Part shown: in pieces, positions 3,795-4,720 of the stretch
Layout of the letters: every line of letters begins with the position of its first letter
Position numbering within the stretch: position 1 is the first letter of the stretch
Assembly (NCBI GenBank): GCA_014361055.1
Contig: JACIWI010000015.1
Span: forward strand, 1-38,709
DNA length: 38,709 nucleotides
Source: Candidatus Bipolaricaulota bacterium
Lineage (GTDB): Bacteria > Bipolaricaulota > Bipolaricaulia > Bipolaricaulales > Bipolaricaulaceae
Reading direction: 5' to 3'
Position numbers and translations under genes: made by a program
Notes under the pieces: model-generated
Seen by the model: the letters and a program-made list of their open reading frames with translations, nothing else
What the model was told of the DNA's origin: nothing
The model's database searches: none

Positions 3795-3824
3795 TTGACA
3801 CGCCCCGACTTCCGGTACTAGGAT
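3795..3824 (+). promoter_or_regulatory. Promoter of the riboswitch-controlled gene
   Basis: TTGACA (3795-3800), 18-base spacer, TAGGAT (3819-3824). Transcription would start near 3831, a few bases before the aptamer. Confidence 0.65.
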
Positions 3825-3838
3825 GACGATACCACCCG

Positions 3839-3916
3839 AATGGGCAAACCCGGCGAAAGCCGGGGACGCAAAGTCACGGGTCTAAGGGGTGACCTAGGAT
3901 GGCCGGACTGCCGAAG
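3839..3916 (+). ncRNA. Cyclic-di-GMP-I (GEMM-I) riboswitch aptamer
   Basis: All the landmarks of the type I c-di-GMP aptamer are present in order. GGGCAAACC (3842-3850) is followed by a 6-bp stem CCCGGC/GCCGGG closed by a GAAA tetraloop (3849-3864), then GGGACGCAAAG (3863-3873), then CGGGTCTAAGG (3877-3887). The second hairpin pairs GTCA (3873-3876) with TGGC (3900-3903) and AGG (3885-3887) with CCT (3893-3895) around a GGTGA loop. P1 closes with GGCA (3843-3846) to TGCC (3909-3912), followed by GAA. The ATG at 3899 and its Shine-Dalgarno-like AAGGGG (3884-3889) lie inside the second hairpin, so ligand binding should hide the start. That would make it a translational OFF switch. The overlap is seen; the direction of control is inferred. 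Confidence 0.88.
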
Positions 3917-4720
3917 GTGGCGTTGCATCTTGGCGCGATGGTGTTGATCGGGGCGATCCTGGTGGGCGGGCTGAGCCGTGCCCAGGAGACGCCAGGAGCG
4001 CCAACGCTTGAGGATCTGATCGCCCGCATCGAGACGGCACAGACCCTTTCCGCTGAAGAGAAGAGCCAGGTGGTGGGTTCCCTTTCCGCGGCGGTGACCG
4101 GTGGGTACCTCACGACAGCGCAAGCGTTGGCGTGGTTGGACACGGTCCAGCTCGAGGCGCTGACCCCGGAGGCGGCGGAGTTCGCAGTCGAGGCCCTCAC
4201 GATGGCGGTTGCCGCGCTGACGACGGGGCGGGTGGACCCCGAGGGCGCGCTGACCGCGTTGGCCGTGGCGACGACGGCCCAGGATCTGGCGCTGCTCAAG
4301 ACGATGCTCGCGGAGCTGGCCGCCCCGCCGGGGATCAGCCAGGCCCTGGCCAATGTGGCCACTGGTTACGACAAGGCCACCATCGCCACGCTGCTCGACG
4401 AGACACAGGAGCTCATCCTGGATGGCGTCCCGCCGGGGATCGTGCTCCGGGTGGCCAAGGACGCGCTTCGTTCCCAGACCGACTTGACCACGCTCCAGGA
4501 GGGGCTGGCCACGTTGGGGACCCTGATCGCCGACGGGACGGCGCCGGGCCGCGCGGCAAATCAAATCGTGGAAAACGGACACCGTGGCCAAAACCGCGAG
4601 CATGAGCGAAACCAAAACGCGCACCAGGGTCCCGGGTTCGCCCCAGAGGAAGAGGAGGAGCGCAACCAGAACGCCGCTGAGCACGGCCAAGGCAATCCCG
4701 GAAAAGGGAACAAAGGCTGA
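3899..4720 (+). CDS. Secreted protein of unknown function under c-di-GMP riboswitch control
   Basis: 273 residues from ATG 3899. I do not recognise a family. Residues 1-28 form a signal peptide (hydrophobic MVLIGAILVGGL, cleavage near SRAQ-E). The middle (about 35-215) is rich in Ala, Leu and Thr and predicted helical, with repeated phrases such as EALTPEAAEFAVEALTMAV and LIARIETAQTLS. The last 60 residues switch abruptly to a polar tail rich in Asn, Gln, Glu, His and Gly, ending GNPGKGNKG. The leader RNA is a c-di-GMP-I aptamer, so the product is probably linked to surface attachment, matrix or appendages, but only by that regulation. The start is uncertain. ATG 3899 has a spaced AAGGGG but sits in the aptamer; in-frame GTG 3917 and ATG 3938 lie past it and lack a clear ribosome site. 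Confidence 0.65.
   Translation: MAGLPKVALHLGAMVLIGAILVGGLSRAQETPGAPTLEDLIARIETAQTLSAEEKSQVVGSLSAAVTGGYLTTAQALAWLDTVQLEALTPEAAEFAVEALTMAVAALTTGRVDPEGALTALAVATTAQDLALLKTMLAELAAPPGISQALANVATGYDKATIATLLDETQELILDGVPPGIVLRVAKDALRSQTDLTTLQEGLATLGTLIADGTAPGRAANQIVENGHRGQNREHERNQNAHQGPGFAPEEEEERNQNAAEHGQGNPGKGNKG

Follow-up and report, generated by a model that had tools for sequence, protein, structure and literature searches.

The window analysed here (38,709 nt of DNA from a Candidatus Bipolaricaulota bacterium, contig JACIWI010000015.1) raises the question of how a c-di-GMP-I riboswitch may act on a gene whose start codon lies within the aptamer itself. The first-pass annotation had placed such a riboswitch at 3839–3940; an Rfam scan of the window returns a single RNA match, a full-length c-di-GMP-I-type aptamer with P1, P2 and P3 on the + strand, so that the aptamer is present where it was claimed, with its limits shifted to 3834–3916, possibly to 3918 if P1 is extended. 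The covariance score, on which that annotation had staked its proposal, is strong: 80.0 bits against RF01051, matched over the whole model (1–87; gathering threshold 35), and 70.2 bits against RF03167 (gathering threshold 59; E-value 8.5e-15), the latter being the best Rfam family by E-value and the former giving the higher score in bits. Six c-di-GMP-I aptamers are found in the 1.56-Mb genome (G000), and the window copy is the top RF01051 scorer among them. The best named relatives of the gene next to the locus (Acetothermia bacterium 64_32, 68% identity) place this genome in Bipolaricaulota/Acetothermia. The window aptamer is a member of the c-di-GMP-I class. With c-di-GMP-I-GGC (RF03167), whose model has matches in 94 of 100 genomes of the phylum, it shares the short P1, the compact P2 and P3 and the consensus sequence; the RF03167 consensus differs in having no Shine-Dalgarno (SD) sequence or start, both of which the window aptamer holds, and in having G at position 47, where the window, the 18 aptamers with this layout aligned for covariation (18/18) and the other copies in its own genome have A. 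If "GGC" denotes this G, which is how we understand the name and the model consensus, the label does not fit the window at position 47, A3870 being that of the canonical pocket, even with an RF03167 score above the gathering threshold.

In the residue numbering of the Vc2 structure, with residue names taken from PMC3764141 and PMC4744006, G20, C44, A47, G79, G83 and C92 correspond to 3843, 3867, 3870, 3898, 3902 and 3911, respectively. P1, as read from the sequence, is formed by 3837–3838 with 3912–3913, and perhaps also by 3834–3836 with 3916–3918; its 5' CG is kept in 18 of the 18 aligned loci (as UG in one of them). P2 is a hairpin at 3844–3869 that includes C44 and a GAAA tetraloop (3855–3858), and P3 pairs 3872–3875 and 3877–3882 with 3898–3900 and 3903–3909, leaving a bulge at 3901–3902 with G83. 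The tetraloop and its receptor in P3 (3898–3902) are both present and aligned across the 18 loci, the interhelical C44–G83 pair is kept in all of them, and the ligand pocket is canonical, with the ligand contact G20 in 17/18, A47, which stacks between the ligand guanines, in 18/18, and the ligand contact C92 in 18/18.

The initiation signals are set into this fold, and the ATG at 3899–3901, the AAGGGG at 3884–3889, the TGCC at 3909–3912 and the GTG at 3917 are all found where the first-pass annotation had reported them. The SD, AAGGGGUGA (3884–3892; −9.3 kcal/mol with the anti-SD), lies in distal P3, in agreement with its earlier assignment to the second hairpin, which can now be refined: its first bases are able to pair with CCU 3893–3895, so that the SD is placed partly in an apical AGG/CCU mini-hairpin and partly in the loop of the latter. 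Support for this mini-hairpin across loci is modest, 10 of 500 shuffle sets being equally stable. The ATG occupies positions 80–82, in the tetraloop receptor and P2–P3 contact, and pairs at the top of P3 through A3899–U3881 and U3900·G3880. Its T and G had been assigned to the stem; this holds for the T but not for the G, which opens the conserved 2-nt bulge next to G83, the partner of C44 in P2, and the A, contrary to the earlier account, is also part of the P3 stem. The codons that follow, A-G-L-P-K (3902–3916), are made of P3, J3/1 (C92) and P1, codon 2 (GCC) opening with G83 and codon 5 (CCG, Pro) with C92. In the alignment of the 18 aptamers, 97.5% of cells pair and nine pairs show double-sided changes, with none of 500 shuffles as high; the upper helix of P2 has two-sided changes at all six pairs, and 98.9% of cells are paired in P3. 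At the top of P3, the second pair is formed on its 3' side by the A of the ATG in the window and, in most other loci, by the base that opens codon 2; it is U-A in 11 and C-G in seven of the 18 loci and broken in none, an exchange indicating that the start region is conserved in its pairing as well.

The gene that begins at this ATG (3899–4720, +) encodes a secreted protein of 273 aa with a signal peptide, a helical body and a charged tail rich in Asn, Gly and Lys, for which a Pfam search matched no family. In none of 16 loci does another in-frame start have an SD as strong as that of the in-aptamer one (−6.6 to −11.2 kcal/mol), which in every case also yields a signal peptide with a positively charged n-region; with the weaker alternatives, this positive charge is almost always lost. 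The orthologous leaders therefore favor ATG 3899 as the start, and GTG 3917, which had been considered as an alternative, is disfavored by its SD (−3.2 versus −9.3 kcal/mol), by the absence of the charge and by its lack of conservation. The window gene is absent from the only other genome of the same genus compared (G026), and the best matches of its protein are in another family (f9), which suggests a possible joint horizontal transfer of the riboswitch and the gene.

A search of 100 genomes of the phylum recovered homologues of the downstream protein in 21, and a c-di-GMP-I aptamer stands in front of 11 of these homologues (the window included), from three families of the phylum. In all 11, the start codon falls within the 3' strand of P3, and the loop of P3 holds the SD, mostly of the GGAGG type. 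Since the end of the aptamer, GCC GGA CTR CCG AA, is read in frame, the N-terminus is M-(x)-AGLPK or AGLPN, with the signal peptide coming after it and with the exception of L059 (AGLSK). No AGLPK-type N-terminus is found among the aptamer-less homologues, one of which (L044) is truncated by a contig end. AGLPK was ruled out as a protein motif, as the aptamer-less homologues are without it and unrelated aptamer proteins have it or a near form. One aptamer-less homologue, L046 (genome G077), starts GGGAGGCACTCATGATGGCCGGATGG (MMAGW) shortly after GGGAGG, and this start may be a relic of an embedded one after aptamer loss. The embedded layout is also present in three further protein families, represented by a protein with BNR repeats (L015), a small Gly/Asn-rich protein (L157) and a 166-aa protein with the N-terminus M-VAGPPK (L273, L277 and L281). 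A pattern made of a start codon, the P3 3' strand and CCGAA occurs 37 times in 23 of the 100 genomes, against two occurrences of the reversed control pattern; this count, together with the layout in 11 of 11 homologues, excludes chance. As judged by sequence comparison, the embedded form is a conserved, lineage-specific arrangement and not a one-off.

Most other aptamers examined in the phylum have a short P3 loop without an SD, and in many of them the start is found 1–17 nt past the CCG. An ATG that overlaps the 3' end of the aptamer (CCGAATG) is seen at L001, L018, L019, L021, L027, L031, L032, L130 and L138; these loci belong to the commoner aptamer type of the phylum, have no recognisable SD and stand mostly before secreted proteins, that of L001 being a Peptidase_S8 protein (subtilase). 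None of the 82 c-di-GMP-I loci compared from other phyla showed a credible start inside the aptamer, most SD-backed starts being 40–150 nt downstream; the sole serious candidate outside the phylum, L237, was rejected because an ordinary lipoprotein start with an SD of its own follows 27 codons downstream. At L104, L126, L154, L012, L161, L162 and L295, the in-aptamer ATG opens only an unconserved ORF of 27–151 aa, with the real gene beginning 229–624 nt later at L104 and at L126 and L154; the predicted membrane protein at +624 of the L154 aptamer resembles one at +315 of L126. Such short ORFs could possibly be leader ORFs under riboswitch control. The occurrence of the same P3 loop with ACG or AAG, or with short unconserved ORFs only, indicates that the loop is not kept for translation alone and that it either predates its role in initiation or is in part independent of this role.

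The usual platform of c-di-GMP-I switches, a separate conserved terminator or a downstream anti-SD, is absent at the window locus. A sigma-70-like promoter, TTGACA-N18-TAGGAT, lies at 3795–3824 (+; one found versus 0.1 expected), with a predicted transcript start near 3831, that is, at P1, and a −10-like hexamer recurs at the equivalent position across the 18 aligned loci, ending 14–30 nt before G20 and scoring at least 5 in 12 of the 18 versus 1 of 86 control windows. With the promoter and the −10-like boxes abutting the aptamer, the transcript should begin at or just before P1. Coding sequence follows directly 3' of the aptamer, the 100 nt after it show no consensus pair across 12 loci, which sustains the earlier claim that there is no separate platform, and a search for a terminator on the + strand found none. 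The −10-like box just 5' of the aptamer and the lack of conserved structure 3' of it leave no room for another expression platform, and comparison of loci shows an aptamer with an embedded SD and start, conserved as such.

We consider it likely that a single RNA domain combines here the roles of aptamer and expression platform with the start of the reading frame, with c-di-GMP acting as a translational OFF signal; in this respect, we infer the ligand, the OFF direction and a direct competition with the ribosome. The transcript would start at P1, with the SD in distal P3, the AUG at the P2–P3 docking site, and codons 2–6 building P3, P1 and the ligand contact C92. In the unbound state, P3 could open and admit the 30S subunit; with c-di-GMP bound, P1, P3 and the P2–P3 contacts would be locked, the SD–AUG stretch would be barred from the ribosome, and the secreted protein would not be made. 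As the SD, the start and the first codons lie inside the aptamer and this layout is kept, binding of the signal should block the ribosome directly. G79, G83, C92 and P1 fall within the footprint of an initiating ribosome, so that the bound and the initiating states would be mutually exclusive, with the ligand stabilising the closed one of the two, and this linkage argues for repression. That ligand pocket, docking site, SD, start and first codons are the same nucleotides, for which c-di-GMP and the initiating ribosome compete, and that the RNA dictates the N-terminal peptide, is a reading in which we place about even confidence. The canonical pocket and the two GGDEF proteins encoded in the genome point to c-di-GMP as the ligand; no PilZ domain was found in a search of this genome, and, given its six aptamers, RNA seems to be the main reader of c-di-GMP there. 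Single-sequence energies count against the preferred explanation, since the aptamer fold, which lies 1.1–9.2 kcal/mol above the free ensemble, leaves SD and AUG about as exposed as they are in the latter, and secondary-structure energies alone thus give no ligand-dependent switch.

The opposite direction, in which another fold masks the SD in the absence of ligand (in the window, through 5' CACCC with GGGUG) and c-di-GMP binding draws the 5' strand into P1, frees the SD and presents it in the P3 loop, is unlikely. One fold of window 3831–3960 does pair the 5' end with the SD, and V. cholerae has an ON-type c-di-GMP-I switch in Vc1, where less c-di-GMP means lower expression (PMC4744006), but this 5' anti-SD was dropped, as neither the minimum free energy fold of a longer window transcript nor the homologues show it, and the AUG remains in the P3 stem in the bound fold. 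A different ligand, sensed by a "GGC" variant or a riboswitch for c-AMP-GMP (a class described in PMC7266159 and PMC9481103), is quite improbable: against the E-value ranking of the variant model RF03167 stand the higher bit score of RF01051, the canonical contacts G20, A47 and C92 kept in the window and the GGDEF proteins of the genome, although a relative of the window aptamer, L154 (1437–1521 in genome G084), has A at position 20 (AGCAAACC), a site tied to c-AMP-GMP riboswitches.

It is very improbable that the P3 loop is kept as an RNA structure only and that the ATG is incidental, with translation starting just past the aptamer from the GAAGG of CCGAAGG, as it does with the phylum's other aptamers. 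Such a view could draw on the several related aptamers with ACG or AAG at the ATG site, on the in-aptamer ATGs that open only 27–151-aa ORFs and on TTG 3923 of the window, which has an upstream GAAGG (−5.8 kcal/mol); however, the in-aptamer start has the best SD in all 16 loci with a real protein, in most loci no other SD-backed start competes with it (at L040, 66 nt pass without any in-frame start), and the signal-peptide charge is lost from later starts.

With the one-domain OFF reading preferred, the locus can be set beside known systems. V. cholerae Vc1 and Vc2 and B. thuringiensis Bc1 (RF01051) share with it the fold, the tetraloop–receptor contact, C44–G83 and the G20/A47/C92 pocket. Vc1 has a long leader with the start codon more than 200 nt after +1 (PMC4744006), whereas the window start is inside the aptamer; Bc1 has a long platform with terminators (PMC11218506), whereas the window has no separate one; and in contrast to both, the window aptamer has a 5'-terminal P1 of 2 to 5 bp and encloses the SD, the AUG and codons 2–6. 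Overlap of aptamer and platform, one domain binding the ligand and controlling expression, is known from HMP-PP (thiS) and NAD+-I riboswitches (PMC7266159, PMC10043782), the former embedded in a terminator and the latter overlapping the ribosome-binding site; the window aptamer differs from them in holding the SD, the AUG and codons 2–6, including a ligand-contacting base, so that the N-terminal peptide is fixed. No c-di-GMP-I aptamer with SD, start and first codons was found in the literature searched, which did not include the founding papers of the class, where one may be described; we rate the aptamer class as known and the form with embedded SD, start and first codons as a new variant. 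In the translational preQ1 and SAM-II/III types, the aptamer also overlaps the platform.

Expression platforms usually drift and aptamers are conserved; where the two are fused, the platform is conserved as well and can be read from sequence. If the one-domain reading is true, each round of translation would reopen the sensor, the RNA would dictate the M-x-AGLPK N-terminus of unrelated secreted proteins, and at some loci the riboswitch may drive a leader ORF that precedes the regulated gene. The locus would then represent a minimal c-di-GMP-controlled translation switch of ~85 nt in which selection on RNA shapes a protein N-terminus, and a phylum so rich in c-di-GMP riboswitches (94 of 100 genomes) may control its secreted proteins mainly through RNA.
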